From NCBI GenBank assembly GCA_017395245.1, contig JAFPVR010000055.1:21579-85578 (forward strand): DNA of 64,000 bases. The letters are read 5' to 3'. Positions 9,249 to 58,920 of the stretch are shown here, one piece after another (within the stretch, counting starts at the first letter, position 1; every line of letters begins with the position of its first letter). The notes beneath the pieces were generated by a model, which worked only from the letters and a program-made list of their open reading frames with translations, was not told the DNA's origin and ran no database searches. The stretch is from Bacteroidales bacterium. Lineage in GTDB: Bacteria > Bacteroidota > Bacteroidia > Bacteroidales > WCHB1-69. Made by a program: the position numbers and the translations under genes.

Positions 9249-9275
9249 GGGTTATGGGTTATTGGTTATTGGATT
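9249..9275. repeat. Heptanucleotide array, GGTTATT type
   Basis: Units GGGTTAT, GGGTTAT, TGGTTAT and TGGATTG (last truncated by one base) run from the META lipoprotein start into the end of engB. The engB stop codon (9266-9268) is inside the third unit. Confidence 0.8.
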
Positions 9276-9871
9276 GTGAATTCGTTATTGATTCCGTCAA
9301 TGAAATCCAGAATCTCGTCACGGCCAGCACTGGAGACAGCCGAGGACCGAATCATCATCGGTAACTCCTCCCAGGTCTCCGCAAGGGTATTCTTCATCTT
9401 TTGGACATTACTCATGGTTTTACCAGCTGAGTTTTTGTCGGTTTTGGTGAAGATAATGGCAAACGGGATACCGTTTTCTCCGAGATTGTTGATAAAATCA
9501 ATGTCAATTCGCTGAGGTTCGAGCCGTGCATCAACCAACACGAAGACGATTTGGAGATTCTCGCGAAAGAGCAGATAGTCGGAAATCATCTTCTGCCATT
9601 TCGCACGGTTGGTCTTGGACGTCCTGGCAAACCCATAACCGGGCAAATCCACGAGATACCAGTTCTTATTGATCAGGAAATGATTGATCGTCTGCGTCTT
9701 GCCAGGTTGAGAGGAGGTCTTCGCAAGCCCCTTGTGGTTAGTCAGCATATTAATGAGCGAAGACTTGCCCACGTTGGAGCGACCAATGAAGGCATATTCG
9801 GGCAGGTTGGGGACCGGGCACTTGCGCCAGTCAACCTCGCTTTGCAGGTATTCGGCGGTCTTGATCAGCAT
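9266..9871 (-). CDS. engB: Ribosome-biogenesis GTPase EngB (YihA/YsxC)
   Basis: Cytosolic GTPase needed for assembly of the large ribosomal subunit. All GTP-binding motifs are present in the 201-aa protein: G1 GRSNVGKS at 30-37, G3 DLPGYG at 75-80, and G4 TKTDK at 142-146. Size is normal for the family. Six bases separate it from the EnvC-like gene upstream. The last codons (...NNEFTIQ) run into the GGTTATT heptamer array, which supplies the TAA stop, so the C-terminus may have been reset by the repeat. Function is certain. Confidence 0.96.
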
Positions 9872-9877
9872 AGTCGT

Positions 9878-11191
9878 TTATCTTCGGGCCAACCACTCGT
9901 TGGGATTCACGTAATGGTCGTTTTTCCAGATTTCAAAGTGCAGCTCGTAGGTATTCGACGACGCGCTCTTGGCCACCGTTCCGATGGTCTGCTTGGTGGA
10001 AACTTTGTCGCCCACCTTGACATTTGTTGACGCAAGATTCTGATAGACTGTGATATACTCGCCATGACGTATCATCACGACCTTGGTGCCCATAATGGGC
10101 ATCACAGCGGTGACAACCCCTTCGAAGACGGCACGGGCAGACGAGCCAGACTCGACCAGAATGTCAATGCCGTGGTTGTCAATCATTACGGAGGGGACAT
10201 CGGGGTGCGGGTAGTTGCCGAAATCGCTGATCTTCGCGCCTTTGGCCACCGGCCACGGCAGCTTGCCCTTGTTGCTGACGAACGAGGCGTTGAGGGTCTT
10301 CTCCTCCGGTGTCAGCGCGATGGCCGTGGAGGATTTGGCCGACGAAGAGGCTGAAGACGACGCAGTACCGCCGGAAGAGCCCTTCCCCGACGAGGACTTG
10401 GCACTCTTCTTGCTCCGCTCGGCGTTGGCTTTGGCAATCTCGGCCTTCACCGCACGCTGGATGGCCGCGTCAATTTCCTTGCGTTGCTGCTGTTTCTTTT
10501 TCAGGTCGGCCTGCAGCTTCTGCGACTCCTTCTTCAGTTTCTCAGCATTCTGGGTCTTCTTTTTCCGGTCATTCTCCAAATTCCGGCGCTCCACCTCCTT
10601 GGCATCCACAACTTGCTGGGCTTCCCCTCGCAACACCTCAATCTGCTCGTTCTTCTTGGTCAGTTCCTCTGTGGTTTTCTGGATTTGCACCGACTGTTCG
10701 CGGATATTGCGGGAGAAGAGGGCATAGTAGCGCATACGGCGGAACATCTGTGAGAAGTCGTCGGCGGCAAGGATGAACGTCACCTTGTCGAGGAAACGGC
10801 GGTTGCGGTAGGCGTTATAGACCAGCTGCGCATAGTCGGCCTTCATGTAGGCCAACCGTTTTTCCAAACTCTTGATTTCCTGCTGGTTCTGCTCCTGTTC
10901 GTCCTCCATTTGGATGATTTGCGAGTTGAGATTGGTGATCAGCCTCTCCCGATCCTGAATCTGTTTGCGCAGAAGCGCCGCCTGCTGGACGGCCGCTTTC
11001 TGGTTCGACTCGTTCTTCTTCAGCAGCTTCTGCGTATTGGCGATCTCATTCTCAATCTTCTGTTTGTCTTTCTTGAGCTGTGTACTGCTTTTCCCGCTCT
11101 GCGCTGAAACCAGCGTCGGAAACCCCATAACCCAAACCAGAAAGAGAATCCAGAATAAGCTTCTATGATTTGACAAGTGACAATTACCCAT
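9878..11191 (-). CDS. EnvC-like murein hydrolase activator (degenerate LytM/M23 domain)
   Basis: Exported coiled-coil protein expected to activate an amidase during septum splitting. A signal peptide (FWILFLVWVMGFPTLVSAQ) precedes about 230 residues of heptad-rich coiled coil, a Ser/Ala-rich linker and a C-terminal LytM fold. The zinc ligands are partly lost: NHGID in place of HxGxD, and ELHFE in place of HxHFE, so it is probably a non-enzymatic activator as EnvC is. An upstream in-frame ATG exists at 11269, but the -7 box at 11210-11217 would lie inside that longer frame; the start at 11191 (MGNCHLSNHRSL) is preferred. First gene of the run with engB and the META lipoprotein. Confidence 0.85.
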   Translation of the reverse strand: MGNCHLSNHRSLFWILFLVWVMGFPTLVSAQSGKSSTQLKKDKQKIENEIANTQKLLKKNESNQKAAVQQAALLRKQIQDRERLITNLNSQIIQMEDEQEQNQQEIKSLEKRLAYMKADYAQLVYNAYRNRRFLDKVTFILAADDFSQMFRRMRYYALFSRNIREQSVQIQKTTEELTKKNEQIEVLRGEAQQVVDAKEVERRNLENDRKKKTQNAEKLKKESQKLQADLKKKQQQRKEIDAAIQRAVKAEIAKANAERSKKSAKSSSGKGSSGGTASSSASSSAKSSTAIALTPEEKTLNASFVSNKGKLPWPVAKGAKISDFGNYPHPDVPSVMIDNHGIDILVESGSSARAVFEGVVTAVMPIMGTKVVMIRHGEYITVYQNLASTNVKVGDKVSTKQTIGTVAKSASSNTYELHFEIWKNDHYVNPNEWLARR

Positions 11192-11209
11192 GGTATGAAA
11201 TATATTTTG

Positions 11210-11217
11210 CAAAGATA
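11210..11217 (-). promoter_or_regulatory. -7 box (TATCTTTG) before the EnvC-like gene
   Basis: Minus-strand TAnnTTTG match 19 bp upstream of the chosen ATG at 11191; it rules out the longer frame starting at 11269. Confidence 0.6.
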
Positions 11218-11300
11218 ACAGATATTTGTGCATTATTATTGTGTGAATCAATATTTTATCAACAAACAATCGTTAATCGCCAATTTACAGGATTATTTGT

Positions 11301-11308
11301 TACTTTTG
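11301..11308 (+). promoter_or_regulatory. -7 box (TACTTTTG) before pnuC
   Basis: TAnnTTTG match 22 bp upstream of the pnuC ATG. No TPP or NAD riboswitch-like fold is visible in the short leader. Confidence 0.6.
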
Positions 11309-11330
11309 CCGCGTTTTTAGTGAGAAAAAT

Positions 11331-11948
11331 ATGTCCACCGATATGATTATCGAATTGATCGGCGCGGCCATCGGGCTGATCTACGTAATTTTAGAATACA
11401 AGGCCAACGTTTGGCTTTGGCCTGCCGGCATCGTGATGTCGCTGTTCTACGTGGTGATTTTCTTCCACGGGAAGTTCTACGCCGATGCGGCCGTCTATCT
11501 CTACTACATCGGGGCAAACACCTACGGGCTGCTCGAATGGACACGCGCCCGCCGCCGCAAACTGCCGAACGACAGCGCCGATTCGGGCGAGTTAGCGATC
11601 ACACATGTCCCTAAGAAACGGCTGCTACCGCTCGTCGCAACAGCCTTCGCCCTGTGGGGACTCCTTTACTGGATTCTCAGCACGTTCACCGACAGCCCCG
11701 TGCCCCTTGGCGACGCCTTCACCACCTCCCTTAGCATCGTGGCGATGTGGATGCTGGCGCAGAAGTATCTGGAGCAATGGCTGTTATGGATTGTTATAAA
11801 CCTTGTCTCCACCGCCCTCTATTTCTGGAAAGGCCTCTACTTTACCGGAATATTGTTTATCGTTTACGTGATTGTCGCCATACTCGGATATTTCCGGTGG
11901 CGGAAAGAAATGCTCTACCCAAGTAGTACCCAAGTAGTACCCAAGTAG
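11331..11948 (+). CDS. pnuC: PnuC-family vitamin transporter (nicotinamide riboside type)
   Basis: Inner-membrane facilitator of about seven helices that takes up nicotinamide riboside, which is trapped by phosphorylation inside. The 205-aa protein has the family segment YKANVWLWPAGIVMSLFYVV followed by FYADAAVYLYYIGANTYGLLEW. Some Bacteroidota paralogues (PnuT) carry thiamine instead; there is no thiamine gene or THI-box nearby, so the substrate is left open. The last nine codons and the stop TAG come from an 11-bp tandem repeat (ACCCAAGTAGT), so the C-terminus is repeat-derived. Confidence 0.85.
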   Translation: MSTDMIIELIGAAIGLIYVILEYKANVWLWPAGIVMSLFYVVIFFHGKFYADAAVYLYYIGANTYGLLEWTRARRRKLPNDSADSGELAITHVPKKRLLPLVATAFALWGLLYWILSTFTDSPVPLGDAFTTSLSIVAMWMLAQKYLEQWLLWIVINLVSTALYFWKGLYFTGILFIVYVIVAILGYFRWRKEMLYPSSTQVVPK

Positions 11949-11959
11949 TACCCAAGTCC
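11917..11959. repeat. 11-bp tandem repeat at the pnuC 3' end
   Basis: Three exact copies of ACCCAAGTAGT (11917, 11928, 11939) plus a partial fourth. The pnuC stop codon (11946-11948) is the TAG of the third copy. Confidence 0.9.
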
Positions 11960-11982
11960 ACCCAAGCTCTTTTAGCTTGGGT
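11960..11982 (+). terminator. Hairpin after pnuC
   Basis: Perfect stem ACCCAAGCT / AGCTTGGGT with a CTTTT loop. It lacks a clear T-tract, so termination is uncertain. The left arm is itself a derivative of the 11-bp repeat unit. Confidence 0.5.
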
Positions 11983-12024
11983 ATAGTATGCCTGCAGTAT
12001 GGGAAATGTATGGCTACACCTTGT

Positions 12025-12052
12025 GTAGAGACGTGCTGCAGCGCGTCTCTAC
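12025..12052. repeat. Family-A palindrome (core GTGCTGCAGCGC)
   Basis: 28 bp with arms GTAGAGAC and GTCTCTAC; one unpaired position in the core. It is the first of two copies 26 bp apart in the gap between pnuC and purD. Confidence 0.9.
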
Positions 12053-12078
12053 ATGCGCATCTCTACAGAAGGTGACAC

Positions 12079-12106: not shown

Positions 12107-12134
12107 ATATGGTGAATCGTTGTCGTAAAAGGGA

Positions 12135-19456: not shown

Positions 19457-22126
19457 ATGACATTGGCTAAAACACAGAAAGATAGAGGATTAGTTAGAGC
19501 TTATACGTTGATGGCGATGCTGTTGCTGTCGGCGCTTTGCGTATTGGCTCAGCCCCCGGGCGGCGGATACCCCGGCGGAAGGCCCCCGGGCGGTTTCCCG
19601 GGCCGTCCTCCCGGCGACCGCGGCGGCTGGAACCAGCAAATGCCTCAGCAACCTCAGCAACTGAAACAGAAGAAAAAAGTGAGAGAAGGATCCACGTTCA
19701 AGGTCGCAGGCCTCCTGCGCGATTCCATCGCCGGCACCCCGTTAGCCTACGCCAACGTCGCCGTACTTGACGCTGGGGACTCCTCCCTCATCAAAGGAAC
19801 CTCCGCCAACGGCAACGGCTACTTCGAAATCGACGGCATCCCGCAAGGCCAATGCATCCTTCGCGTATGGTGCTTCAACTACACCCCGAAACACATCCCC
19901 TTCTCCGTCAAAAACAACACCAACCTGGATGTCATCAAGCTGATGCCCATCTCCACCACGCTTAACGAGGTGACCATCAAGTCGGAGAAACCCTTGTACG
20001 CCCAGGACGGCGAGAAACTCATCTACAACGTCAGCGAAGATGCCTCCATCCAGACGGGTACCACCGAGGACGCCCTGCAGAATGCGCCCGGTGTGGAGGT
20101 CGATGTGGAGGGCAACATCACCTTGCGCGGCGTGTCGAGTGTGGAAATCTGGATTAACGACAAGCCCTCAAAGCTTACCGAAGAGAACCTCAAGACCTAC
20201 CTGCAGACGCTGCCCGCCAATGCCTTGGAGCGCATCGAGGCCATCACCAACCCGTCGGCCAAATACGCCACCGATGCAGAGGCGGTCATCAACATCGTCA
20301 CCTCCGCACACGTGAAGAGCAACCAGTTTGTCAGTTTCGGTATCAACGGCTCCAACCAGCCATTTATCTCGCCGTGGGTCAGCTACATGTGGACAAAAGA
20401 AAATCTGAGCATAAACTTCTTTTTATCAGGACGTTACAATGCCCGCCGCAATACGGATGAGACGACCTCCTATCAGCGCCGCGATGCCGAAACAGAGGGT
20501 GATTACGACACCACCTGGTCGGCCCAGACTTCCCAGATTGACATCAACCGCCGAGGCAGCGGCAACTTCTTCCTCGGCATCAACTACGAGATTGACACCA
20601 TGAGCGAGATTTCCTTCGATGCCGGCGGATTTTACAACTACAACACCACCGGCCTGACCAAGTCTGAAGACCAGACCTACTACAATGTCTATGAGGAGGA
20701 ACCGTATGATCAGAATTACATCGACACGACCCACAGCAAGACCAAAGGACAGTCCATCTTCGCACATGCAGGCGTGGACTACACCAAAAAATTCGACAAG
20801 AAAGGCCACAATCTGCGCATCAGTTTGAACACGCGTTTCAATCACAACGCCAGCGACCAGTGGTATAACCGTTACTACGATACCTATTACGACCTCGACG
20901 AGCATCGTTACCTGCTGACGCGCAACTACAGTTTCGGAGGCAGCTTGGACACCCGCTACAACCGTCCCTACAGCGAGAACGGGGAGATGAGTTACGGTCT
21001 TCGTGTCGACCACTCCTCCATGAACAACGACTACAAACGCTACAACGACACTATCGGCGTGTTGGTGGACACCTTGCGTACCTACCATTTCAACGGCAAT
21101 TCGACCAATCTCAATGGTGACGTAAACTGGACCCACCGTTGGGGCGGCTTCACCATCAGCACGGGCTTGGGTTTGGGCATTTTGCGCGATGCCTACGACT
21201 ACATCAGCGATATGCCGTTTGCGGATGCCGGCGCACCCATTTACTTCTCGGCACGGCCCTCCATCCACCTTTCCTACCGCACCGAAAACATGCACAATTT
21301 CAAACTCAACTACTCCATGCGCATGTCCCATCCTGGCGAAGAGCAGGTGAGCACCTTCCGGCGCTATAGCGACAACAGCTATTCCACCGGTAATCCGAAT
21401 GTAAAGAGTGGCTACACGCACAGCATGGAAGCCGGCTGGCAGAAGTATTTCAACCGGTTCGGCAATGTCGGCGTGGAACTTTACGGGCGGATGAGCACGA
21501 ATGAAATCAGCTCGCTGACCGACTCCAAATACGATGAATTCCTGGATCGTGTGATCAGCTACTCCACACCGTATAACATGGGAACATCTTGGCGTTATGG
21601 AGCATCGCTGAACGCCACTTACCGTCCGACGGGCTTCATCAACCTGCGTCTCTATGCCAACGTCTATGACTATGGCTATAAGATGGAATACGACCGCATC
21701 GATGAGTTTGGCAATGTCAGCCATCAACGTGATCAACGTGACAAATGGTCATGGAGTGTGCGTCTGAATTTCTGGGCGAAGGCCTTCGACTGGTTACAGT
21801 TTACCGCTTCTGGATTCTACAACTCCCCGACACTCAGTCTGATGAGCGAGCGCAAAGCCCGTTATGCGCTGAATTTCGGTCTGCGCAGCGATTTGTTCAA
21901 GCGCAAACTGTCCATTTACGTCAATGTGCAGGACATCTTCAACTGGGGCGGCAGATACGGTTCCGGTTCCGAAAACACGAACCCGTACTACCTGAGCAAC
22001 AGCACCAGCAAGGTGCTCAACAGCCGTTATATCTCAGCCGGCATCACCTTGCGTTTCGGCAAGATGGAGCTTGAGAGCAAAGCACAACAAACCGGTAGTG
22101 AATCCGATTCCGGCGATTCAATGTAG
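19457..22126 (+). CDS. Outer-membrane beta-barrel protein, TonB-receptor-like (OMP_b-brl_3 type)
   Basis: An 889-aa outer-membrane protein: signal peptide to VLAQ, a Gly/Pro-rich stretch (PPGGGYPGGRPPGGFPG), a charged linker, a carboxypeptidase-regulatory-like domain (residues about 78-160, PLAYANVAVLDAGDSSLIKG), a plug (VSEDASIQTGTTEDALQNAP) and a large beta-barrel ending in a receptor-like strand (LNSRYISAGITLRFGKMEL). Such proteins resemble TonB-dependent receptors but often lack a clear TonB box; the ligand is unknown and no SusD partner is present. The stop TAG at 22124-22126 lies inside a family-A palindrome, so the final residues may be repeat-determined. Confidence 0.85.
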   Translation: MTLAKTQKDRGLVRAYTLMAMLLLSALCVLAQPPGGGYPGGRPPGGFPGRPPGDRGGWNQQMPQQPQQLKQKKKVREGSTFKVAGLLRDSIAGTPLAYANVAVLDAGDSSLIKGTSANGNGYFEIDGIPQGQCILRVWCFNYTPKHIPFSVKNNTNLDVIKLMPISTTLNEVTIKSEKPLYAQDGEKLIYNVSEDASIQTGTTEDALQNAPGVEVDVEGNITLRGVSSVEIWINDKPSKLTEENLKTYLQTLPANALERIEAITNPSAKYATDAEAVINIVTSAHVKSNQFVSFGINGSNQPFISPWVSYMWTKENLSINFFLSGRYNARRNTDETTSYQRRDAETEGDYDTTWSAQTSQIDINRRGSGNFFLGINYEIDTMSEISFDAGGFYNYNTTGLTKSEDQTYYNVYEEEPYDQNYIDTTHSKTKGQSIFAHAGVDYTKKFDKKGHNLRISLNTRFNHNASDQWYNRYYDTYYDLDEHRYLLTRNYSFGGSLDTRYNRPYSENGEMSYGLRVDHSSMNNDYKRYNDTIGVLVDTLRTYHFNGNSTNLNGDVNWTHRWGGFTISTGLGLGILRDAYDYISDMPFADAGAPIYFSARPSIHLSYRTENMHNFKLNYSMRMSHPGEEQVSTFRRYSDNSYSTGNPNVKSGYTHSMEAGWQKYFNRFGNVGVELYGRMSTNEISSLTDSKYDEFLDRVISYSTPYNMGTSWRYGASLNATYRPTGFINLRLYANVYDYGYKMEYDRIDEFGNVSHQRDQRDKWSWSVRLNFWAKAFDWLQFTASGFYNSPTLSLMSERKARYALNFGLRSDLFKRKLSIYVNVQDIFNWGGRYGSGSENTNPYYLSNSTSKVLNSRYISAGITLRFGKMELESKAQQTGSESDSGDSM

Positions 22127-22150
22127 AGACGGGGCGTGCCCCGTCTCCAC
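22123..22150. repeat. Family-A palindrome at the stop of the beta-barrel gene
   Basis: Arms GTAGAGAC and GTCTCCAC, core GGGGCGTGCCCC. The TAG at positions 2-4 of the element is the stop codon of the upstream gene. Confidence 0.9.
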
Positions 22151-26150: not shown

Positions 26151-26222
26151 CTATTCCTAAAGCAGCCCCGAAGGGGCAAGAGCTCGGTAGCCCAGGGTAA
26201 GGCCGATAGGCCGCAGCCCTGA
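26151..26222. repeat. Multi-hairpin repeat, copy 1 (family C), upstream of rpoD
   Basis: Hairpin GCCCCGAAGGGGC, then AGAGCTCGGTAGCCCAGGG, an inner stem GGCCGATAGGCC and a closing CCCTG. The sequence from CTATTCCT on is shared with the copy at 27130. Confidence 0.85.
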
Positions 26223-27129: not shown

Positions 27130-27234
27130 CTATTCCTTAAGCAGCCCCGCAGGGGCAAGAGCTCGGTAGCCCAGGACAAGGCCGAAGGCCGCAGCCCTGG
27201 GAAAACAGGACAAGGCCGAAGGCCGCAACCCTGG
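27130..27234. repeat. Multi-hairpin repeat, copy 2 plus a half copy (family C), downstream of rpoD
   Basis: 27130-27201 repeats the copy at 26151 with small changes (GCCCCGCAGGGGC; GGCCGAAGGCC). 27206-27234 repeats the second half (ACAAGGCCGAAGGCCGCAAC). It begins 3 bp after the rpoD stop and could end its transcript. Confidence 0.85.
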
Positions 27235-33013: not shown

Positions 33014-33931
33014 ATGAACAACATTTGGAAAATCGTAATCCGTATCGGCATCGGCCTATTTTTTATTGTCTCGGCGGTGCTGAAGCTGCTGTCTTTGGAC
33101 AGTTTCGAGCTGTACATCTACAGTTTCGACATTGTAAACTTCGTTTGGAGCGGTCTGGCTGCGCGGGCCATCATCGCTTGCGAGCTTCTGGTCGGCATCC
33201 TGCTGATTGCCAAGATTCGATACAAGGAGGCGTGGTGGCTGGCCATGCTCATGCTGGCAGGCTTCTCGCTGCTGCTGGTCTATGTGATGCTGTTCCGCCA
33301 CGACAGCAACTGCCACTGCATGGGCGACCTGGTGGAGATCAAGCCTTCCATTTCGCTGATTAAAAACCTGATAGCCATTGCATTGCTGTTATTTGTACGC
33401 AAGGAGGACGACTACCAGATTGGACCCTTAGGTCGCAAACTGGTGATAATTGGAGCTTTCGTGGCCGCCCTTGTGCCACCCTTTGTCCTGTTCCCGATGG
33501 ACGGTGTCTATAACCTCTTCGCTAAATCCGACGAGTTGGAATACAGCGAAATCGATTTCCATGCGCTGATGGCGGATTCCACCATGCAAGATGTGGACCT
33601 TGCACACGGCAACTATATCGTAGGCATTATCTCCTCGGGCTGCGGTTTCTGCAAGACCAGTTGTTTGAAAATGTCGGAGATTGTATCCAACAACCAGTTG
33701 GACACCAACAAGATACTCTATTTCGTATGGGGTGACAGCGCATCGGTGCAGCCATTTCAGGAGGAAACCAAGACTGAATCGTTCCGCTATGTGCGCGTAA
33801 GCCCGATTGCGGCCATACGAGTTGTCAACGGGCAGTTCCCGACCTACCTGTTCATCCGAAACGGCGAGGTGGAGGCCACAGCAGACCTGCGCCACCTCAC
33901 CGAGAAGGCCGTACGCGAACATCTTCAGTAA
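33014..33931 (+). CDS. MauE/DoxX-type membrane protein fused to a thioredoxin-like domain
   Basis: A 305-aa inner-membrane protein: about four helices in the N-terminal 135 residues (IRIGIGLFFIVSAVLKLLSL, then LLVYVMLFRHDSNCHCMGDL with a Cys-His-Cys motif), one more helix, then a periplasmic thioredoxin-like domain with SSGCGFCKTSC (C210, C213, C217). MauE-like proteins pass electrons to periplasmic disulfide systems, so this is probably a self-contained thiol-disulfide relay. The stop TAA (33929-33931) falls inside a degenerate family-A element (GTAAAGAC). Confidence 0.8.
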   Translation: MNNIWKIVIRIGIGLFFIVSAVLKLLSLDSFELYIYSFDIVNFVWSGLAARAIIACELLVGILLIAKIRYKEAWWLAMLMLAGFSLLLVYVMLFRHDSNCHCMGDLVEIKPSISLIKNLIAIALLLFVRKEDDYQIGPLGRKLVIIGAFVAALVPPFVLFPMDGVYNLFAKSDELEYSEIDFHALMADSTMQDVDLAHGNYIVGIISSGCGFCKTSCLKMSEIVSNNQLDTNKILYFVWGDSASVQPFQEETKTESFRYVRVSPIAAIRVVNGQFPTYLFIRNGEVEATADLRHLTEKAVREHLQ

Positions 33932-33955
33932 AGACGTGCCACGGCGCGTCTTTTC
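33928..33955. repeat. Degenerate family-A element at a stop codon
   Basis: Arms GTAAAGAC and GTCTTTTC, core GTGCCACGGCGC. The TAA in the left arm ends the MauE-like gene. Confidence 0.75.
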
Positions 33956-34112: not shown

Positions 34113-34661
34113 ATGGCTTTGTCTGAGAATAAAAAAAGAGAACTCTTCGAATACTACTCACAGAACGGCTTCCGTCAACCGATGGACAAAATCGCCGATA
34201 GTTTGAGAATTTGCCACAAAACATTCTTCAACCGTTACTGTAACAAGGCCAAATCCGTTGAGATTGCATGGCAGTATTGGCAAGGGGTCTGCCAGAAAAA
34301 GTGGATTGCCCTCATGCAGCACTGCAACCACAGCGTGGAAGCCCTGACGGTAACGGTGTTCCACTTCCGTTCAATGAGCCGGGAAGAGCCTCATTATTAC
34401 GAGCTTACACGAGACAGACGTTTATACCTTGGTACGGATTCTTTCTTCTACACCGCCCTGAAAACCGTATTGGAGCGCGGCAAGCAGTGTTTCCATATCC
34501 ATGAGAATCTAAATGAGGAAACCTACATCCAGTTCCTGCTGAACAACCTCTTTCAGATTGATGTGGAGGAGGAGCGGCGACCGGATGTCCTGCGTTACGT
34601 CCTTTTGCCGGCCCTGACCGAACGCGGTATGGAACTGTTTATGGAAACCCCGTTCGCGTAA
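34113..34661 (+). CDS. TetR-like DNA-binding protein
   Basis: A 182-aa cytosolic protein. The N-terminal 50 residues (KRELFEYYSQNGFRQPMDKI then ADSLRICHKTFFNRYCNKA) fit the TetR helix-turn-helix, with the F-x-x-Y-x-x-K end of that motif class; the rest is helical and would bind a ligand. Divergence from well-known TetR members is strong. No target operon is obvious: the downstream gene has its own -7 box. Its stop TAA (34659-34661) is in a degenerate family-A element. Confidence 0.7.
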   Translation: MALSENKKRELFEYYSQNGFRQPMDKIADSLRICHKTFFNRYCNKAKSVEIAWQYWQGVCQKKWIALMQHCNHSVEALTVTVFHFRSMSREEPHYYELTRDRRLYLGTDSFFYTALKTVLERGKQCFHIHENLNEETYIQFLLNNLFQIDVEEERRPDVLRYVLLPALTERGMELFMETPFA

Positions 34662-34685
34662 AGACGTTATAATTCACGTCTCCTC
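34658..34685. repeat. Degenerate family-A element at the TetR-like stop
   Basis: GTAAAGAC ... CACGTCTCCTC with an AT-rich core GTTATAATT. Its TAA is the stop codon of the upstream gene. Confidence 0.65.
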
Positions 34686-34770: not shown

Positions 34771-36033
34771 ATGATGAAAAGAATCGCCCTTACAATTTGC
34801 ATATTGCTTTCCTTGTTCGCCGGACGAGCCAGTTACCTGTTGATTCCCATGGACCTCGCACAGGCTAATCACCTGAAGGCTTACGGCATTGCCTATTTCG
34901 CTGTGGCTCACCAAGTTGACATGAGCTGGCTGCTAAACTACCGAGGTGGCAGTTTCATGTGCCCCTACAGCAGCGTCTTGGAAGATGAGTGCGTCATCCG
35001 CGGTGTCTCCTACGAGGTCATCGCCGACATGCAGGCCACGCAGATTCTCAACGAAATTGCGGTAGTGGAGAACAATATGAACGAGATTCGCCTCACCAAG
35101 GAGCCGAAAATTGCCGTCTACTCCCCGAAAAACAAGCTGCCGTGGGACGATGCCGTGACCCTCGTACTCACTTACGCCGAAATCCCTTACACCGTGATTT
35201 ACGATGAGGAAGTCATCAAGGGTGAACTGCCGAAATACGACTGGTTACACCTGCACCATGAGGATTTCACCGGCCAATACGGGAAGTTTTGGGCCAGTCA
35301 GCGCAACACCAAGTGGTATCAGGAGGATGTGAAGGAGAATGAAGAACGGGCCGCACAGTTAGGTTTCACCAAGGTGTCACAGATGAAGCTGGCCGTGGCC
35401 AAGGGCATCCGAGACTTCGTGGCCGGCGGCGGTTACCTTTTCGCCATGTGCTCCGGCCCCGACAGCTACGACATTGCGCTTGCTGCCGAAGGGGTGGACA
35501 TCTGCGAGAGCATGTTTGACGGTGACCCAATGGACCCGCAGGCGCAAAGCAAACTCAATTACGATAACTGTTTCGCTTTCACCAACTTTCATATTGAAAC
35601 AAACCCTTACGTCTATGAGGTTTCCGACATTGACGTAAGTCCCACGCAGCATATCTCCAACAAATCGCACGACTATTTCACGCTGTTCGAATTCTCGGCA
35701 AAGTGGGATCCTGTACCCACCATGCTGTGCCAGAATCACTTGCAAGTGATTCCCGGCTTCATGGGACAGACCACGGCATTCCGTAAGGAGCTCATCAAAC
35801 CGACTGTAACCATTATGGGCGAGTGCGCTTATTTCAACGAGGCCCGCTACATCCACGGTGAATTCGGCAAGGGCACCTGGACGTTCTACTCCGGCCACGA
35901 CCCCGAGGATTACCAGCACCTCGTCAACGACCCGCCCACCGACCTGAATCTATTCCCCAATTCGGCCGGTTACCGCCTGATTCTCAACAACGTGCTGTTC
36001 CCTGCCGCGAAAAAGCAGCAGCAGAAGACTTAA
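34771..36033 (+). CDS. Exported conserved Bacteroidota protein, amidotransferase-like
   Basis: A 420-aa protein with a signal peptide (IALTICILLSLFAGRA) followed by SYLLIPMDLAQANHLKAYGI, a start shared by proteins often labelled 'asparagine synthetase B' in Bacteroidota. It lacks the N-terminal catalytic Cys and the synthetase domain of AsnB, so that label is not supported. KIAVYSPKNKLPWDDAVT and FVAGGGYLFAMCSGPDSYDI resemble a class I glutamine-amidotransferase-like (BPL-N type) fold. Function unknown. The final residues and stop TAA (36031-36033) overlap the first heptamer of an AGACTTA array. Confidence 0.65.
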   Translation: MMKRIALTICILLSLFAGRASYLLIPMDLAQANHLKAYGIAYFAVAHQVDMSWLLNYRGGSFMCPYSSVLEDECVIRGVSYEVIADMQATQILNEIAVVENNMNEIRLTKEPKIAVYSPKNKLPWDDAVTLVLTYAEIPYTVIYDEEVIKGELPKYDWLHLHHEDFTGQYGKFWASQRNTKWYQEDVKENEERAAQLGFTKVSQMKLAVAKGIRDFVAGGGYLFAMCSGPDSYDIALAAEGVDICESMFDGDPMDPQAQSKLNYDNCFAFTNFHIETNPYVYEVSDIDVSPTQHISNKSHDYFTLFEFSAKWDPVPTMLCQNHLQVIPGFMGQTTAFRKELIKPTVTIMGECAYFNEARYIHGEFGKGTWTFYSGHDPEDYQHLVNDPPTDLNLFPNSAGYRLILNNVLFPAAKKQQQKT

Positions 36034-36150
36034 GACGTGAGACTTAAGACTTAGGACTTAAATTGGATATCAGAATATTGCATTGCTATAACGTATGATT
36101 GTGTAAGAAAGGAGACCTTAAAAGTCTCAAGTCTTACGTCTTACGTCTCA
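36026..36150. repeat. Composite element 1: inverted heptamer arrays around a core (family D)
   Basis: Left array: five exact heptamers, AGACTTA, AGACGTG, AGACTTA, AGACTTA, GGACTTA (36026-36060). Right array: AGTCTCA, AGTCTTA, CGTCTTA, CGTCTCA (36123-36150), complementary to the left. The 62-bp core contains TTGGATATCAG and ATTGCATTGC. A second element with a related core in the reverse direction is at 58764. Confidence 0.8.
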
Positions 36151-44407: not shown

Positions 44408-45031
44408 ATGTTAGTATTAGGTGTCGCCGGTGGATCCGGCTCGGGAAAAACCTCCGTGGTTCAGAAAATCGTCAACCAGTTCCCCAAACATCACGTCAGC
44501 GTGCTGTCGCAGGACGCGTACTATCGCGACAATGGCGACCTCACGCAGGAGGAGAAAGAGAAAATCAACTTCGACCATCCCTCTGCCATTGAATTTCCCC
44601 TGATGGTCGAGCATATCCAACGGCTCAAGGCTGGTGAAACCATTCCCATGCCCACGTATTCGTATGTCACCTGCCGTCGCGGCGAGGAAACCATCCCCGT
44701 GCATCCCGCCGAGGTGCTCATCGTGGAGGGCATCCTCGTGTTCACCAACCCTGAACTGTGCGACACGATGGACATCAAGGTGTTTGTCGACACCGACGCG
44801 GACGAACGCCTCATCCGCATCATCAGCCGCGATGTCATCGAACGCGGACGTGGCCTCGACAAATCCATCCGCCACTACCGCACCTTCGTGAAACCCATGC
44901 ACGAACTCTTCATCGAGCCCACCAAACGCCTCGCGGACATCATCATCCCCGTGGGCGGCCAAAACAATATCGGCATCGACATCCTCACCGCGAAAATACG
45001 GGAGACGCTGACTTTGACCGTTGACCTTTGA
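44408..45031 (+). CDS. udk: Uridine kinase
   Basis: A 207-aa cytosolic kinase phosphorylating uridine and cytidine for pyrimidine salvage. P-loop GGSGSGKT at 8-15, then SQDAYYRDN, NFDHPSAIEFPLM and EVLIVEGILVF are typical of Udk. It pairs functionally with upp, 13 kb away. The C-terminal codons (LTVDL) and the stop TGA (45029-45031) are formed by a TTGACCT heptamer array, so the end of the protein has been written by the repeat. No promoter box is obvious; it may be read from the tRNA-Gln promoter by leak-through. Confidence 0.95.
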   Translation: MLVLGVAGGSGSGKTSVVQKIVNQFPKHHVSVLSQDAYYRDNGDLTQEEKEKINFDHPSAIEFPLMVEHIQRLKAGETIPMPTYSYVTCRRGEETIPVHPAEVLIVEGILVFTNPELCDTMDIKVFVDTDADERLIRIISRDVIERGRGLDKSIRHYRTFVKPMHELFIEPTKRLADIIIPVGGQNNIGIDILTAKIRETLTLTVDL

Positions 45032-45054
45032 CCATTGACTTTGACCTTTGACTT
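45014..45054. repeat. Heptanucleotide array, TTGACCT type, overlapping the udk end
   Basis: TTGACCG, TTGACCT, TTGACCA, TTGACT (six bases), TTGACCT, TTGACTT. Translated in udk as LTVDL and stop. Confidence 0.85.
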
Positions 45055-45093
45055 TGTAACTGTTGGCTATAAATTCCGTAAACAAAAAAACAG

Positions 45094-45128: not shown

Positions 45129-46811
45129 ATGAGAAATAAACTCTTGATTATCCTGTTACTATCTGTTTTTCAGGTAGTTGTATTCAAAAACAATATCCTT
45201 TCAGCACAGAAGCTGAAGCCCTCAGAGGTACCTTCCGATGTGGTGGAGACCTTGGAGGAGCAATATTCCTACGTTAAGGTGACCGGCTGGGCTAAGGAAG
45301 GCCAAAACTACGTGGCCAGCATCAAGGACGGCTCCACAAGCGGCAAAGTCTACCTGAGCGGCGCAGGCGAATGGATACGCACGCTGTTCACCGTTCCTAT
45401 CAACGAGCTGCCCTCCACAATAACCGAGTACGTGAAAGAGAACTACCCCGAATACCTCATCAGCGTTAGCGCGTTGGAGGAAAAAGAAGATGTGAGCACG
45501 CACTACTACCTCGAAGTGCGCGAGGACGCTGTGGGCTCCAAACCCTCAGTGCTGACCTTCTCGTCCACGGGCACGAACCAGCTGCTCACCCGCAACGATC
45601 CCGAAGGATTCCAGGATCCCCGGGTGAAACAGCCCGACAAGATTGAGCAGGCCAAGGCCGCCGCCGCCGAGAAGCAGGCACAGAAAGCCGAAGCTGCCAA
45701 ACGCGAGGCCGAGGAGAAAGCCGCCGCTGAAAAGGCCGCCAAGGAAGCGGCCAAGGCTGCCGCCAAGAACCCTGCCCCGAAACCGGCTGCAACCGCTTCT
45801 AAACCGGCTACCACAGCTGCAAAGCCGACGAATACCGCTGCAAAGCCGGCAACCTCAACTGCCAAATCCGCCACCCCGCAAAAAGAGGCCAAGCCCAAGA
45901 AGGAGAAACCCGAACCCGTGGTGAAAGACGAGCATGGCAATATCGCCATCAAAGCCAACACCGTACCCGAAGTCGTCACCAAAGCTCTGGTCAAGAAAGT
46001 GTTGCATCCTGCCGAACTCAACTGGTTCCTCGTGGACAGCATGTACATTGCCCGCTGCCTCAACCAAGGCAAGAAAACAGCCGTCTACATCAAACCGAAC
46101 GGCACGTGGGAGAAAACCCTCACCATCATGCCCGAGGAAAGCGTCACAGGTCTGATGTCCAAGCACTTGAACGACTTCTACCCCGGCTGGCGTTTCAAGA
46201 GCTGCGTCAAGGAGCAGCGTGCCGACAAGGACGACAAGACCATGGTCGAATTCTATGAGAAAGCCAACTACAAGGCCAAGCTGGTCACGACCGTCTTCTT
46301 CGACAAAGCTGGCAAGTTGATCCGTACCATCGATCCCGACTACGAGCTGGGCGGCGGCAACAAGAAGGAGAGCCCGGAGGATGACGCCCTTAACAAATAC
46401 TACGAAAAGATGAACATGAGCCTTGACAACGACGATGCCACCCGCGTGCCCGAGAACGTGAAGGCCGCCTTCAAGCTCAAATACCCGAAGGTGAACAACG
46501 AGGTGTGGACCGAGGACGGATATATGAACTACATCGTCGCCTTCTACACCACCCGAGGCAAGGAATTCTGCGTCTATAACAGCTACGGCGAACTCACGGA
46601 GACATGGGTGCTCGGCAAGAACGAGAGCCTCTCCGCCACCATCCAAGACTACCTCAAAAAAGAGTACAAAAGCTGCAAGCTCAAAGAGTTCTACACCGTG
46701 AAACGTCTCGCCGACAAACTTACTGCCTATAAGGTCATCATCGTTGACAAGAAAACCCAGGAAGAGCAAGAACTTTGGTTCAACCTCTCTGGAAAACCCA
46801 TCGAATATTAG
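45129..46811 (+). CDS. Exported protein with three PepSY-like domains and a KAAE-rich linker
   Basis: A 560-aa protein: signal peptide (IILLLSVFQVVVFKNNILSA), a PepSY-like/BLIP-fold domain (about 27-150), a highly charged Lys/Ala/Glu then Pro/Ala-rich linker (about 165-265, AEKAAKEAAKAAAKNPAPKP), and two further PepSY-like units (VPEVVTKALVKKVLHPAELN; VPENVKAAFKLKYPKVNNEV). Each unit has the strand-helix pattern V-P-x-x-V...Y...W. Such periplasmic proteins are common in Bacteroidota; no function is established. The stop TAG (46809-46811) overlaps the first of two AGACTTA-type heptamers. Confidence 0.7.
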   Translation: MRNKLLIILLLSVFQVVVFKNNILSAQKLKPSEVPSDVVETLEEQYSYVKVTGWAKEGQNYVASIKDGSTSGKVYLSGAGEWIRTLFTVPINELPSTITEYVKENYPEYLISVSALEEKEDVSTHYYLEVREDAVGSKPSVLTFSSTGTNQLLTRNDPEGFQDPRVKQPDKIEQAKAAAAEKQAQKAEAAKREAEEKAAAEKAAKEAAKAAAKNPAPKPAATASKPATTAAKPTNTAAKPATSTAKSATPQKEAKPKKEKPEPVVKDEHGNIAIKANTVPEVVTKALVKKVLHPAELNWFLVDSMYIARCLNQGKKTAVYIKPNGTWEKTLTIMPEESVTGLMSKHLNDFYPGWRFKSCVKEQRADKDDKTMVEFYEKANYKAKLVTTVFFDKAGKLIRTIDPDYELGGGNKKESPEDDALNKYYEKMNMSLDNDDATRVPENVKAAFKLKYPKVNNEVWTEDGYMNYIVAFYTTRGKEFCVYNSYGELTETWVLGKNESLSATIQDYLKKEYKSCKLKEFYTVKRLADKLTAYKVIIVDKKTQEEQELWFNLSGKPIEY

Positions 46812-46823
46812 ACTTAAGACGAG
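46810..46823. repeat. Two AGACTTA-type heptamers
   Basis: AGACTTA and AGACGAG, running into the palindrome at 46827. The first supplies the AG of the upstream stop TAG. Confidence 0.55.
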
Positions 46824-46826
46824 AAT

Positions 46827-46854
46827 GTAGAGACGCAAAATTTTGCGTCTCTAC
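46827..46854. repeat. Family-A palindrome (core GCAAAATTTTGC)
   Basis: 28-bp perfect palindrome, arms GTAGAGAC and GTCTCTAC, sitting between two different heptamer arrays. Confidence 0.92.
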
Positions 46855-46855
46855 G

Positions 46856-46890
46856 ACAATCTGAATCTTGAATCTTGAAACCTGAAACCT
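46856..46890. repeat. Heptanucleotide array, GAATCTT type, before prmA
   Basis: ACAATCT, GAATCTT, GAATCTT, GAAACCT, GAAACCT in exact register; the prmA ATG is 2 bp later. Confidence 0.78.
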
Positions 46891-49387: not shown

Positions 49388-51733
49388 ATGAAAAAATTAT
49401 ACCTCCTGATTCTATTTTGCGTACCGCTTTTCACGTTCGTGTCTAACGCTCAAAACTTCCCAAAAGCGACCGCAATGCCTGCCGATGCCGTCACACTGCA
49501 AAGTCCCGACGGGCAGCTGCAGCTCAAGTTCGCCGTGGTGGACGGGCATCCGCAATATACGCTCGACCTAGCCGGAAGGCCCGTGGTACTGCCCTCGCGA
49601 ATGGGCTTTACCCTCATCGGGCGCAAAAGCCTTGACCACGACTTTGCCTTAACGAACTCACAGACAAGCACTTTCGACGAAACCTGGGAGCCGGTGTGGG
49701 GTGAGGAGGCCTCCATCCGCAACCACTATAACGAGCTGCTCGTGACCTTGGAACAGCACGGGGCACTCGACTGGCAGGGCAAGGTAATCCCCCGGGCCAC
49801 CGTTATGCTGATTCGCTTTCGCCTATACGACGACGGCTTAGCGTTCCGTTACGAATTTCCGTACGAAAACGCGCTGACTTACTTCAAGATAGAGGAAGAA
49901 CTGACTGAATTTGCCATGGCCAGCGATCACACCGCCTGGTGGATTCCCGGCGATTACGACACGCAGGAGTACAACTACAACGAGTCGAAGCTGTCGGAGA
50001 TTCCCGTCAGGGCAGAAGCAATGCACCGCACCTACGACGGCATTTGGAGCGTCTTCTCCAATTCTGCCGTGCAGACTGCTTTGCAGATGAAAACCGCTGA
50101 CGAGCTGTACCTTAACATCCACGAAGCCGCTGCCCTCAACTTCCCGACCATGCACTTGCTGATTGACACAGAGAGCCTCGTGTTCCATGCCGCGCTCACC
50201 CCCGATGCAGAGGGTGTGAAAGGAAGGCTGCAGACCCCGTGTCGTACCCCCTGGCGCACCGTCATGGTCTGCGAGAAGGCCACCGACGTACTCGCCTCGC
50301 GCCTGATTCTCAACCTCAACGAGCCTTGCGCTATCGAGGATGTCTCCTGGATTCATCCGGTGAAATACATGGGCGTGTGGTGGGAGATGATTACCGGCAA
50401 AAGCTCGTGGAACTACACCGATGACTTCCGTTCCGTACGGTTGCCCGGCGATGAAGGCGAGGGCGTTACGGACTATGCACATGCCAAGCCCAACGGACAC
50501 CACGGGGCCAACAACGCCAACGTGCGCCGCGTCATCGACTTTGCAGCCGCCAACGGCTTCGACGCCGTCCTCATTGAAGGGTGGAACATCGGTTGGGAAG
50601 ACTGGGTCGGCAACCAGAAATACTACGTGTTCGATTTCGTCACCCCGTATCCCGACTTCGACCTGCCCGCGCTGAACAAATACGCCCACGAGAAAGGCAT
50701 CCGGCTAATCATGCATCACGAAACCTCTTCTTCAACAGCAAATTACGAACGATGGATGGAAAAAGCATACACGCTGATGAACCAATACGGCTACGATGCG
50801 GTCAAGAGCGGCTATGTGGGCGACATTCTGCCGTATGGCGAGAACCATTTCAGCCAGCCGACCAACAATCACTACCACTACGCGGTGACAGAGGCGGCCG
50901 GGCACCACATTATGGTTGACGCCCATGAGGCCGTGCGCCCGACGGGGCTCTGCCGCACCTGGCCCAACATGATCGGCAACGAAAGCGCGATGGGCACCGA
51001 ATTCAAGGGCAAAATCCATCCCGGGCACGCCACCATCCTGCCGTTCACGCGACTGCAAGGCGGCCCGATGGACTACACCCCAGGCATCTTCCAGACCGAC
51101 ATCGGCAAGTTCGTCAGCTGGCAGCAGGGCAACCGAATGTGCCACACAATATGCAATCAGTTAGGACTTTACGTCACCTTCTATTCGCCACTGCAGATGG
51201 CCGCCGACCTTCCCGAACATTATGAACCGTTCATGGACGCTTTCCAGTTCATCAAGGACGTGGCAGTGGACTGGGACAAGAGCCTCTATCTGGAGGCCGA
51301 GCCCGGCGCATACATCGTGACAGCCCGGCATCCGAAGATTTCGTCGTTGAACAAGGCCGCCGACGGAGTGGGTGAATTGTCTGACGGCAAGAAAGGCGTG
51401 ATTTCCGGTGCCGCAAGGTTTGTGTATGCCATTCCCGACACCGTAGAGACGTTGCGCGCAACGTCTCTACAAAACCCGCGAAACGTATGGTTTATCGGCG
51501 GCATCACCGACGAAAACGCCCGCGAGGTCACGGTGAAATTGGATTTCCTGAAACCCGGCGTCAAATACGAGGCCACCATTTATGCCGACGCCCCCGACGC
51601 CTGCGGATTACCAGGCGAAGGTTATAAACCACAAGCCTACACCATCACCAAGAAGAAAGTCACCTCGAAGAGCGTGCTGAAGCTGCGGATGGCCCCGTGC
51701 GGGGGATTCGCAGTTTCGGTGCGGGAAATCTGA
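49388..51733 (+). CDS. GH97 inverting alpha-glucosidase (SusB-type), paralogue 1
   Basis: A 781-aa exported glycosidase releasing glucose from alpha-glucans. Signal peptide to SNAQ, N-terminal beta-sandwich ([20 protein letters not shown]), (beta/alpha)8 barrel with [11 protein letters not shown], and a C-terminal beta domain. The inverting-type residues of SusB, E439, E508 and E532, are matched by E445 (MHHETSSS), E514 (HEAVRPTG) and E538 (MGTEFKG), each offset by six; the retaining type has Asp instead of the first. About ten residues near 686-695 (VETLRATSL) come from a family-A palindrome in frame. A close paralogue follows. Confidence 0.95.
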   Translation: MKKLYLLILFCVPLFTFVSNAQNFPKATAMPADAVTLQSPDGQLQLKFAVVDGHPQYTLDLAGRPVVLPSRMGFTLIGRKSLDHDFALTNSQTSTFDETWEPVWGEEASIRNHYNELLVTLEQHGALDWQGKVIPRATVMLIRFRLYDDGLAFRYEFPYENALTYFKIEEELTEFAMASDHTAWWIPGDYDTQEYNYNESKLSEIPVRAEAMHRTYDGIWSVFSNSAVQTALQMKTADELYLNIHEAAALNFPTMHLLIDTESLVFHAALTPDAEGVKGRLQTPCRTPWRTVMVCEKATDVLASRLILNLNEPCAIEDVSWIHPVKYMGVWWEMITGKSSWNYTDDFRSVRLPGDEGEGVTDYAHAKPNGHHGANNANVRRVIDFAAANGFDAVLIEGWNIGWEDWVGNQKYYVFDFVTPYPDFDLPALNKYAHEKGIRLIMHHETSSSTANYERWMEKAYTLMNQYGYDAVKSGYVGDILPYGENHFSQPTNNHYHYAVTEAAGHHIMVDAHEAVRPTGLCRTWPNMIGNESAMGTEFKGKIHPGHATILPFTRLQGGPMDYTPGIFQTDIGKFVSWQQGNRMCHTICNQLGLYVTFYSPLQMAADLPEHYEPFMDAFQFIKDVAVDWDKSLYLEAEPGAYIVTARHPKISSLNKAADGVGELSDGKKGVISGAARFVYAIPDTVETLRATSLQNPRNVWFIGGITDENAREVTVKLDFLKPGVKYEATIYADAPDACGLPGEGYKPQAYTITKKKVTSKSVLKLRMAPCGGFAVSVREI
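51443..51470. repeat. Family-A palindrome inside GH97 paralogue 1
   Basis: 28-bp perfect palindrome, core GTTGCGCGCAAC, translated as VETLRATSL. The same sequence stands at the matching place in paralogue 2. Confidence 0.95.
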
Positions 51734-54151
<2,418 letters not shown>

Positions 54152-56593: not shown

Positions 56594-56602
56594 CGCCAGG
56601 AT

Positions 56603-58021: not shown

Positions 58022-58033
58022 TTTGGGGTATTT

Positions 58034-58061
58034 GTAGAGACGCACGGCCGTGCGTCTCTAC
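58034..58061. repeat. Family-A palindrome (core GCACGGCCGTGC)
   Basis: 28-bp perfect palindrome between the MBOAT start and the upp end. A half-site ACGTCTCTA at 58072-58080 overlaps the upp stop codon. Confidence 0.92.
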
Positions 58062-58078
58062 GACAGGCATTTACGTCT

Positions 58079-58735
58079 CTATTCCTTGATACCGTAGGCC
58101 AGATCGCCGGCATCGCCGAGGCCGGGCACAATATAGGATTGCGCAGTCAGTTCCTCGTCAACGGCGCCGATCCAGAAGGTGCAGTTGTCGAAGGGGAGCT
58201 TGCTCATCACGTAATCCAGACCTTGACGGCTGACAATCGCGCTCACGATGTGCGTGTGCAGCGGGTCGCCCTTGCTCATCAGTTCCTCGTAGGCCAGCAC
58301 TAACGACTGTCCGGTGGCCAGCATCGGATCGCAGAGAATCAGCGTCTTACCGTCCAAATCCGGCGAGGAGAGGTAGTCAACCTGAATTTCGAACGAACCG
58401 TCCCGGTAGTATTTCCGGAAAGCGGAGATGAAGGCATTTTCGGCACGGTCGAAGTAGTTGAGCAGCCCCTGGTGCAACGGCAGCCCAGCCCGCAAAATCG
58501 TGGCCAACACCGGCTTCTCGGTGATGCGCGAAATAGTGGCGATGCCAAGCGGGGTCGTCACCTCCTCCTCAGCGTAAGACATCTTCTTGCTGATCTCGTA
58601 GGCGAAAATCTCACCGATGCGCTCCAGATTCCGGCGGAAACGCATGCTGTCGGCTTGCACCTTGGTACTCCGCACTTCGGCGATGAACTCGTTGAAAAGG
58701 GAGTTCGTGTTTCCTAAAATGTGTAGGTTATTCAT
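58079..58735 (-). CDS. upp: Uracil phosphoribosyltransferase
   Basis: A 218-aa cytosolic enzyme: uracil + PRPP to UMP. MRFRRNLERIGEIFAYEISK, ATILRAGLPLHQGLLNYFD, the PRPP loop LILCDPMLATGQSLVLA and the C-terminal GLGDAGDLAYGIKE, which binds uracil, are all present. The stop TAG is followed by AGACG, which is half a family-A element. Its start is 28 bp from composite element 2. Confidence 0.95.
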   Translation of the reverse strand: MNNLHILGNTNSLFNEFIAEVRSTKVQADSMRFRRNLERIGEIFAYEISKKMSYAEEEVTTPLGIATISRITEKPVLATILRAGLPLHQGLLNYFDRAENAFISAFRKYYRDGSFEIQVDYLSSPDLDGKTLILCDPMLATGQSLVLAYEELMSKGDPLHTHIVSAIVSRQGLDYVMSKLPFDNCTFWIGAVDEELTAQSYIVPGLGDAGDLAYGIKE

Positions 58736-58763
58736 AATGTGATTTTTAATGGTTGATGTTTTT

Positions 58764-58920
58764 AGACTTTAGACGTAAGACTTAAGACTTTGGGGCTTTT
58801 CGATACTGCAATGCTGATATTCAACATTGTTCTTTTGTATTCATACCTTTGAAATAATACATTTAGTCTCAAATCCTAAGTCTCAAGTCTCAAGTCTTAA
58901 GTCTCAGGTCTCAGGTCTCA
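58764..58920. repeat. Composite element 2: inverted heptamer arrays around a core (family D)
   Basis: Left array: AGACTTT, AGACGTA, AGACTTA, AGACTTT (58764-58791). Right array: eight units from AGTCTCA to GGTCTCA (58865-58920), in perfect register. The core read on the minus strand contains TTGAATATCAG and CATTGCAGTATCG, matching TTGGATATCAG and ATTGCATTGC of element 1. The purB stop (58918-58920) is the end of the last heptamer. Confidence 0.82.

Follow-up and report, generated by a model that had tools for sequence, protein, structure and literature searches.

Short repeats lying directly behind bacterial genes have been described in several lineages. GTAG-tagged repetitive extragenic palindromic sequences (REPs) are short, high-copy palindromes found mostly 3' of genes, rare in spacers between divergent genes and sometimes located inside open reading frames (ORFs); their GTAG termini often supply a TAG stop to the flanking ORFs (PMC3733652, Di Nocera et al. 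2013). Tandem TAACTGA heptamers are intergenic in marine Beggiatoaceae and also occur in a few Bacteroidetes; forward copies put stops in all three frames, and 13 sets overlap the stop of the upstream gene (PMC4679880, MacGregor 2015). GGGNATC heptamers of Xanthomonas and Nostoc show an intergenic excess not seen for other long unit sizes, with many copies less than 50 bp from stops and some overlapping them (PMC4692102, Rehm et al. 2015), and the REPs of Escherichia coli lie within 15 nt of stops, with ribosome stalling reported in earlier work cited there (RepRanger, PMC12306157). Here we describe two repeat families at the gene ends of a rumen Bacteroidales bacterium and its close relatives, a 28-bp palindrome (family A) and tandem arrays of 7-nt units (heptamer arrays), starting from a stretch of 64,000 nt (the window; GCA_017395245.1, contig JAFPVR010000055.1, our C34:21579-85578) of a genome of 3.78 Mb in 129 contigs.

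The two families are distinct, and the explanation that we consider probable is that both are fast-turnover, non-coding repeats occupying the 3' flanks of genes in this rumen Bacteroidales genus, with the palindrome placed on existing gene ends and the heptamers filling spacers up to protected limits. The data show the repeats to be abundant, with peaks of array edges at gene ends and a preferred palindrome register, together with unchanged protein ends in some genes and repeat-encoded tails in others; a role of the repeats in ending translation need not be assumed.

Unless stated otherwise, counts refer to a sample of 1,065,014 bp from this genome (G000), formed by the window and 59 further stretches (L002-L060). 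Genes were called with our own hexamer-model script, trained on the sample, rather than with a published caller, giving 812 genes, 775 of them with a complete end, and 52 genes in the window. The relatives named below are listed as metagenome-assembled genomes (MAGs), and because orthologues of G000 genes are among the genes counted in them, the two sets of counts are only partly independent; the purB gene of the window is 99% identical to purB of several rumen Bacteroidales MAGs. Period-7 tandem arrays numbered 161 (149 mostly non-coding) in the sample and 0 in shuffled sequence, while periods 4, 5, 6, 8, 9, 10 and 11 yielded 0, 0, 5, 1, 12, 0 and 9 arrays. With rotation and strand collapsed, 51 distinct heptamer words were found in G000 and 42 in the relatives, 67 in total, and these are variants of one another rather than independent words. 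Family A is a perfect 28-bp palindrome, GTAGAGACG-N10-CGTCTCTAC, with 244 exact copies in the genome; the search pattern permitted other middle lengths too, the copies listed were nearly all 28 bp, and the pattern read backwards was found nowhere in the genome. Allowing up to 3 mismatches, the sample contained 124 palindromes, against 1 in shuffled sequence. In loci whose purB was at least 96% (n=12), 86-92% (n=20) or less (n=48) identical, density per Mb was 206, 28 and 46 for heptamer arrays and 103, 14 and 0 for palindromes.

Both families coincide with stop codons about three times as often as under random intergenic placement: 19 of the 97 mostly non-coding palindromes overlapped a stop (6.0±2.4 expected), as did 38 of the 149 mostly non-coding heptamer arrays (12.2±3.3 expected). 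An earlier sequence-only reading of the window had proposed a count of this kind against chance, and on this point its expectation of an excess was borne out. It had also put the genes ending inside a repeat at about a fifth, which proved too high, since the sample gives 65 of 775 (8.4%); within the window they were 8 of 52 by a strict definition and 10 of 52 by a loose one. Arrays of 11-mers did not overlap stops (0 of 8, 0.7 expected), the mostly coding array of pnuC falling outside this test. Start codons were overlapped by 1 palindrome and 1 heptamer array, against 6 and 13 expected. A harder null, in which each repeat was shifted randomly within its own spacer, left a heptamer excess at stops (36 vs 21.7±3.8; 34 vs 19.3±3.6 with strict genes; 28 vs 17.4±3.1 in the relatives), and in this test 1 of 136 arrays and 1 of 96 palindromes of G000 covered a start codon. 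TAG accounts for 144 of 711 stops without a repeat, 19 of 45 in heptamer arrays and 16 of 19 in palindromes.

The heptamer signal is sharpest at the array edges. Counting from the base after the stop codon, the near edge fell at -3 to +4 in 38 arrays, against 29 at 5 to 39 nt (rate ratio 5.7, p = 4e-12), and in the relatives the figures were 23 and 19 (rate ratio 5.3, p = 2e-7); a further 28 arrays (G000) and 23 (relatives) begin inside the gene, 4-40 nt before the end of the stop codon. On the other side of the spacer, 17 arrays in G000 (p = 9e-7) and 12 in the relatives (p = 7e-4) end 5-9 nt before a start, tested against 10-39 nt, and 11 and 3 more end at 0-4 nt. This start-side peak is weaker than the one at stops, its commonest distance is 5-6 nt, and the array ends that form it possibly mark a protected initiation region. 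Such nucleotide-resolution peaks agree with the sequence-only claim that the repeats live at gene ends, though most copies of both families lie off stops: 111 of the 161 arrays and 77 of the 124 palindromes are wholly non-coding, and 45 and 19, respectively, overlap a stop. Arrays of many words would fill the spacer up to limits set by selection, the stop codon at one end and the start codon with the few nucleotides before it at the other, and their edges may mark where purifying selection halts an expanding or inserting array. Stop-bearing heptamers would then be the survivors, unable to extend the protein far.

Random insertion or slippage combined with tolerance at gene ends, such that anything landing in the last codons appears as a stop inside a repeat, would account for udk, pnuC and L017:235-2262, three genes treated below, and is consistent with the 49 arrays (2.0 per nt) that start 4-27 nt before the end of the stop codon, against 38 (1.5 per nt) at 5-30 nt downstream. 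However, it leaves unexplained the 5-fold peak at -3 to +4, the peak before starts and the confinement of the palindrome to one register, and as a sufficient explanation it seems to us rather improbable. We also considered that arrays might be seeded in situ by the end of the gene they adjoin, an idea prompted by relative G008, in which the array at gene 34771-36033 includes the ACG TAA of that gene. It was rejected: edges at stops are as abrupt as elsewhere, and matches past the array edge reach 33.5% at stops and 35.5% elsewhere, although single cases could still fit. Stop codons were in phase with the stop triplets of the array in 13 of 31 arrays starting at -3 to -1 and in 5 of 13 starting at 0 to 1 (3.8 and 1.3 expected), an excess that we discounted because it arises partly by definition.

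For the palindrome, the signal lies in its register. Among the 19 overlaps with stops in G000, 16 share one register (mostly G-TAG-AGACG; 14 TAG, 2 TAA), and 15 have a G before the stop; in the relatives, 18 of 19 overlaps are at the same offset, all with TAG and 15 with the preceding G. Exact palindromes of the sample hold a stop in one frame in 81 of 81 cases and in the other two frames in 0 and 2 of 81. With a stop in only one frame, palindromes inserted at random near gene ends would be expected to be read through about twice as often as they provide a stop; within 60 nt of a gene end, however, only 2 are read through (one of them in a gene truncated where its stretch ends), while 34 stand in the stop register. 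Two processes would each account for this, selection against read-through and insertion of the palindrome on ends already present. In exact copies GTAG is complementary to CTAC at the opposite end, leaving no unpaired GTAG tag. Of 95 palindromes typed by spacer, 65 lie between co-directional, 21 between convergent and 9 between divergent genes, divergent spacers making up 21% of spacer bases, and coverage peaks 10-40 nt after stops. Palindromes also lie entirely inside called genes (26 in the sample, 15 in the relatives), in one phase in 22 of 26 and 11 of 15 cases; in the window, the neighbouring paralogues 49475-51733 and 51779-54151 each carry an in-frame palindrome (51443 and 53861) 263 nt before the end, translated as protein. 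The palindrome would be a REP-like element with a stop triplet, in one register only, in its GTAG foot. Where it meets a gene end, it would sit mainly on a pre-existing one, so that the stop is kept or a few residues are trimmed, and it may be mobile with a preference for GTAG or GTAA ends.

The repeat-bearing gene ends of the window are as follows.

9247..9272 (-), engB: heptamer array CCAATAA/CCCATAA (gene sense) containing the stop TAA 9266-9268.
11916..11957 (+), pnuC: 11-mer array TACCCAAGTAG in 3.8 copies, encoding the last ~10 residues and the stop TAG 11946-11948.
22123..22150 (+), beta-barrel gene: palindrome at the stop, G-TAG-AGACG.
33928..33955 (+), MauE-like gene: palindrome variant GTAAAGACG...CGTCTTTTC at the stop TAA.
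34658..34685 (+), 'TetR-like' gene (no family match): palindrome variant GTAAAGACG...CGTCTCCTC at the stop.
36025..36060 (+), gene 34771-36033: heptamer array of the AAGACTT type containing the stop TAA, with a complementary array at 36122-36148.
45014..45039 (+), udk: heptamer array of the TTGACCT type encoding the end of the tail and the stop TGA 45029-45031, with a longer degenerate array at 45009-45056.
46809..46822 (+), PepSY-like gene: heptamer-like remnant at the stop TAG, ~1.5 units, below the array threshold.
46826..46856 (strand not assigned): family A palindrome ~15 nt after the PepSY-like gene.
58074..58081 (-), upp: half-site TAGAGACG supplying the stop TAG.
58033..58063 (strand not assigned): full family A palindrome downstream of upp, ~16 nt beyond the half-site.
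58878..58920 (-), purB: heptamer array GACTTGA/GACCTGA (gene sense) containing the stop TGA 58918-58920, with a complementary array at 58761-58790.

Repeats overlap stops in the window as well as beyond it. Of the ten stops that the sequence-only reading had listed, eight hold under the strict definition (engB, pnuC, the beta-barrel, MauE-like and 'TetR-like' genes, 34771-36033, udk and purB), while upp ends in a half-site and the PepSY-like gene in a degenerate heptamer pair below threshold. The gene names engB, udk, purB, upp, pnuC and MauE come from that reading and are consistent with Pfam matches; the 'TetR-like' gene and the 'amidotransferase-like' gene had no match in Pfam or NCBIfam, and the PepSY match, at 24.9 bits, is below the Pfam cut-off of 28.3 bits.

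Orthologues show how far such ends depend on the repeat. Of the 9 palindrome genes tested, out of 19 such genes, 6 have one or more orthologues that lack the repeat and stop at the same codon; these are 2 of 5 genes in one set and 4 of 4 in another, for which the orthologues were picked by hand (MauE with its neighbour and two other genes, while L028:16706-18910 yielded no sequence). The MauE-like gene ends at the same codon without the palindrome in 18 of 18 closer orthologues (53-85% identity), with other tails in 11 distant ones (50-54%), and the end codon of the 'TetR-like' gene is the same in 15 of 16 orthologues, the remaining one being one codon longer. In the beta-barrel gene the palindrome is present in G000 and G036, and a plain ATG TAG stands at the same place without it in G003 and G016. 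L052:8349-9518 keeps its codon in 28 of 28 orthologues whose end lies in the locus, one more (G036) having the palindrome and one (G028) a half-site, and L030:13930-14619 has, among the matches listed, a palindrome in three species, the same codon in the repeat-free L327, L329, L330 and L334, and other lengths elsewhere. The upp protein ends in GIKE* in 12 of 12 close relatives regardless of what follows, and 34771-36033 ends in KKQQQKT* in 10 of 10, with differing sequence past the stop that in four cases is an array by our threshold. The sequence-only reading would have been contradicted by repeat-free orthologues ending at the same codon, and such orthologues exist for purB, upp, MauE, the 'TetR-like' gene, 34771-36033, the beta-barrel gene and others. 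Where the protein end is unchanged, the stop would most simply be older than the repeat.

In 12 of 12 close relatives the position at which purB ends is identical; the total length is equal in 11, and the twelfth has 6 additional nt but the same last residues. Behind it stand, as named by eye, GACTTGA, AGTTAGC or TAACCTT arrays, the palindrome, or degenerate sequence. The three relatives whose arrays are of the AATTAGC type have N as their last residue, the others C or K. A stop-codon-anchored, sequence-agnostic replacement of the spacer, depositing period-7 DNA at stops with the stop triplet as part of the unit and with words and palindrome swapped between species, is a further explanation, to which we allow only a small chance.

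Other ends are rewritten, so the claim that the repeats alter C-termini holds for part of the genes, mostly with shifts of a few residues. The repeat encodes tails of ~4-11 residues in udk, pnuC, L009:2536-3684 and, for L020:4754-8140, in the orthologue from G036; compared with its orthologue, L017:235-2262 falls short by 5 residues. In udk, everything after KIRETL varies among orthologues, and the tail TLTVDL of the window is array-encoded; 3' of udk in G020 and G036 (L146, L147), octamer arrays (TAACCNNN) replace the heptamers, period 8 being enriched (63 per Mb) at 86-92% purB identity. The 11-mer tail of pnuC is also present in G036 and absent in G020, and for this one 11-mer gene tested no repeat-free orthologue with an unchanged end was found. 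L009:1863-2432 was possibly compared with a frameshifted or misassembled orthologue.

Mobility directed at stop codons, by an enzyme that inserts or copies repeats at gene ends (GTAG/GTAA for the palindrome, stop-containing words for the heptamers), would fit the single register of the palindrome, the near absence of read-through copies and the nucleotide-exact heptamer peak. It would also fit the palindrome-free relatives that have GTAA or GTAG at the same end: L270 for MauE, L265, L279 and L280 for the 'TetR-like' gene, L297 and L302 for L052:8349, and G003 and G016 for the beta-barrel gene. These empty sites are weak evidence for insertion beside such a site, because GTAA and GTAG form 162 of 775 gene ends anyway and are rare at MauE and 'TetR-like' orthologues. 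Moreover, most copies of both families lie in wholly non-coding DNA, selection against read-through could yield the same register, and no transposase flanked by the palindrome was found in the loci inspected. We regard directed mobility as unlikely. Of the three Y1_Tnp matches of the genome, candidates for a mobilizing enzyme, two have no palindrome within their loci of ~3.3 kb and the weakest has one ~0.67 kb away.

Several results weigh against the explanation that we favour, by non-coding repeats on existing ends and up to protected limits. None of the Y1_Tnp matches is clearly tied to the palindrome, and GTAA or GTAG is found at the end of only 1 of 18 (MauE) and 3 of 16 ('TetR-like') closer orthologues. 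Under the within-spacer null, the excess of palindromes at stops is weak (19 vs 14.0±3.2; 19 vs 13.6±2.9 with strict genes; 17 vs 12.3±2.7 in the relatives), the palindrome signal being its exact register. Heptamers avoid starts less strongly in the relatives (5 vs 9 to 13 expected). Expansion to a limit is read from the positions of edges. Among 9 heptamer genes, an orthologue that lacks the repeat and shares the end was found for only 3 (4 in the raw count, one being a chance equality in the variable tail of udk), and shifted ends are not rare in this family. Finally, when G000 was compared with one close relative (G036), protein ends were equal in 96 of 126 pairs without a repeat at either stop, in 1 of 10 with a repeat in G000 only, in 5 of 10 with one in G036 only and in 4 of 5 with repeats in both; pooled, pairs with a repeat on one side have equal ends in 6 of 20 cases (Fisher p = 9e-5 against repeat-free pairs). 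Genes with loose C-termini may, however, simply accept repeats more readily. Ends differed by more than 5 residues in 10 of 126 repeat-free and 2 of 20 one-sided pairs, and the 5 pairs with repeats at both stops exceed chance (hypergeometric p = 0.008).

The stop content of the heptamers has to be considered separately. A stop triplet is present in 58 of the 67 words (49±3 after permutation, p = 0.001), and in 144 of the 161 arrays one strand or both have a stop in each of the three frames, against 96±5 after permutation of the unit (78 of 105 vs 61±4 in the relatives). The sequence-only reading had argued that a tandem unit with one stop offers a stop in every frame and can end any gene; this holds for tandem 7-mers and 11-mers and largely for heptamer arrays as terminators, although only 35 of 161 close three frames on both strands, and fails for the 28-bp palindrome with its single stop frame. 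Arrays might accordingly be selected as fail-safe terminators of translation, a one-stop heptamer closing three frames and catching read-through and frameshifts. Arrays that intrude into genes are indeed stop-rich on the sense strand (25 vs 2 in G000, 13 vs 6 in the relatives), but partly by definition. Those starting at the stop are only modestly sense-biased (21:13 and 13:5), with a stop density per nt of 0.104 sense and 0.094 antisense in G000 and 0.105 and 0.081 in the relatives for anchored arrays; those more than 40 nt away show 30:18 and 11:16, and 17 of 136 typed arrays lie between divergent genes. For arrays that begin at the stop or beyond it, so modest a strand preference is an argument against a role dedicated to supplying stops, though not a disproof, and we judge such a role quite unlikely. 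Under the preferred explanation, by repeats filling spacers, enrichment of stop triplets would be expected because arrays that extend proteins are weeded out.

Transcription termination, or stabilization of mRNA by hairpins directly after the stop, would suit the palindromes, since the 90 nt from the stop fold with a mean z of -3.6 with a palindrome at the stop and -4.1 with one nearby, compared with -1.3 at repeat-free ends (120 sampled of 684). Heptamer arrays have a complementary partner within 200 nt in 24 of 161 cases, against 7 with random partners, but in the relatives such partners are at control level (8 vs 10 of 105). Ends with an anchored heptamer array fold no better than repeat-free ends (z -1.43 vs -1.32 over the same 90 nt), and a hairpin function of the heptamers was rejected on this basis; as a general explanation, terminators or hairpins appear very unlikely. 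The pairs 36025-36060 / 36122-36148 and 58878-58920 / 58761-58790 could form a long stem of heptamers.

Further repeats occur behind genes of the window. A 35-bp tandem unit with an internal hairpin (GGCATTCTTGCCG) is present in 4.9 copies at 8551-8721, 3' of a gene ending at 8488, and represents another family. A 56-nt repeat lies at 26151-26206 and 27130-27185 (93% alike), ~50 nt after the stop at 26102 and 3 nt after the stop at 27126, and a similar sequence (AAGCAGCC...GGC) stands behind a stop at L009:1863.

Gene ends are places where small repeats enter without killing the gene, and 40 genomes of one genus show the same gene with the same end and a different repeat behind it. This makes a testable case for the turnover of intergenic repeats, for stop codon identity set by the neighbouring repeat and for why seven is the favoured length here. 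Compared with the systems described so far, in the parts of those reports available to us, family A resembles GTAG REPs in being short and high-copy, lying near 3' ends in co-directional or convergent spacers and providing stops. It differs from them in that their tag is unpaired at one end, whereas GTAG of family A pairs with CTAC in a full palindrome, and the list of phyla with GTAG repeats (Proteobacteria, Cyanobacteria, Chloroflexi, the PVC group) does not name Bacteroidetes (PMC3733652). To the GTAG REPs this genus adds palindrome-free relatives in which the majority of the palindrome genes tested keep their protein end. The E. coli REPs are close to stops as here, a likeness of description rather than of sequence, and a stop supplied by the repeat is not described in the corresponding part of that report (PMC12306157). 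A literature lookup of GTAGAGACG as text listed matches that, by their titles, look like primers or unrelated sequence. Among heptamers, the Beggiatoaceae have one main word, mostly upstream of starts, in contrast to the 67 words here with their strongest peak at stops, and GGGNATC words are G-rich and quadruplex-forming, unlike the words listed here, which have no such G-runs. Our literature searches brought up no description of a genus in which arrays of dozens of heptamer words start at the stop codon. Stop-providing GTAG palindromes and heptamers with stops in three frames are thus already in print, while the many words and their nucleotide-exact anchoring look new.

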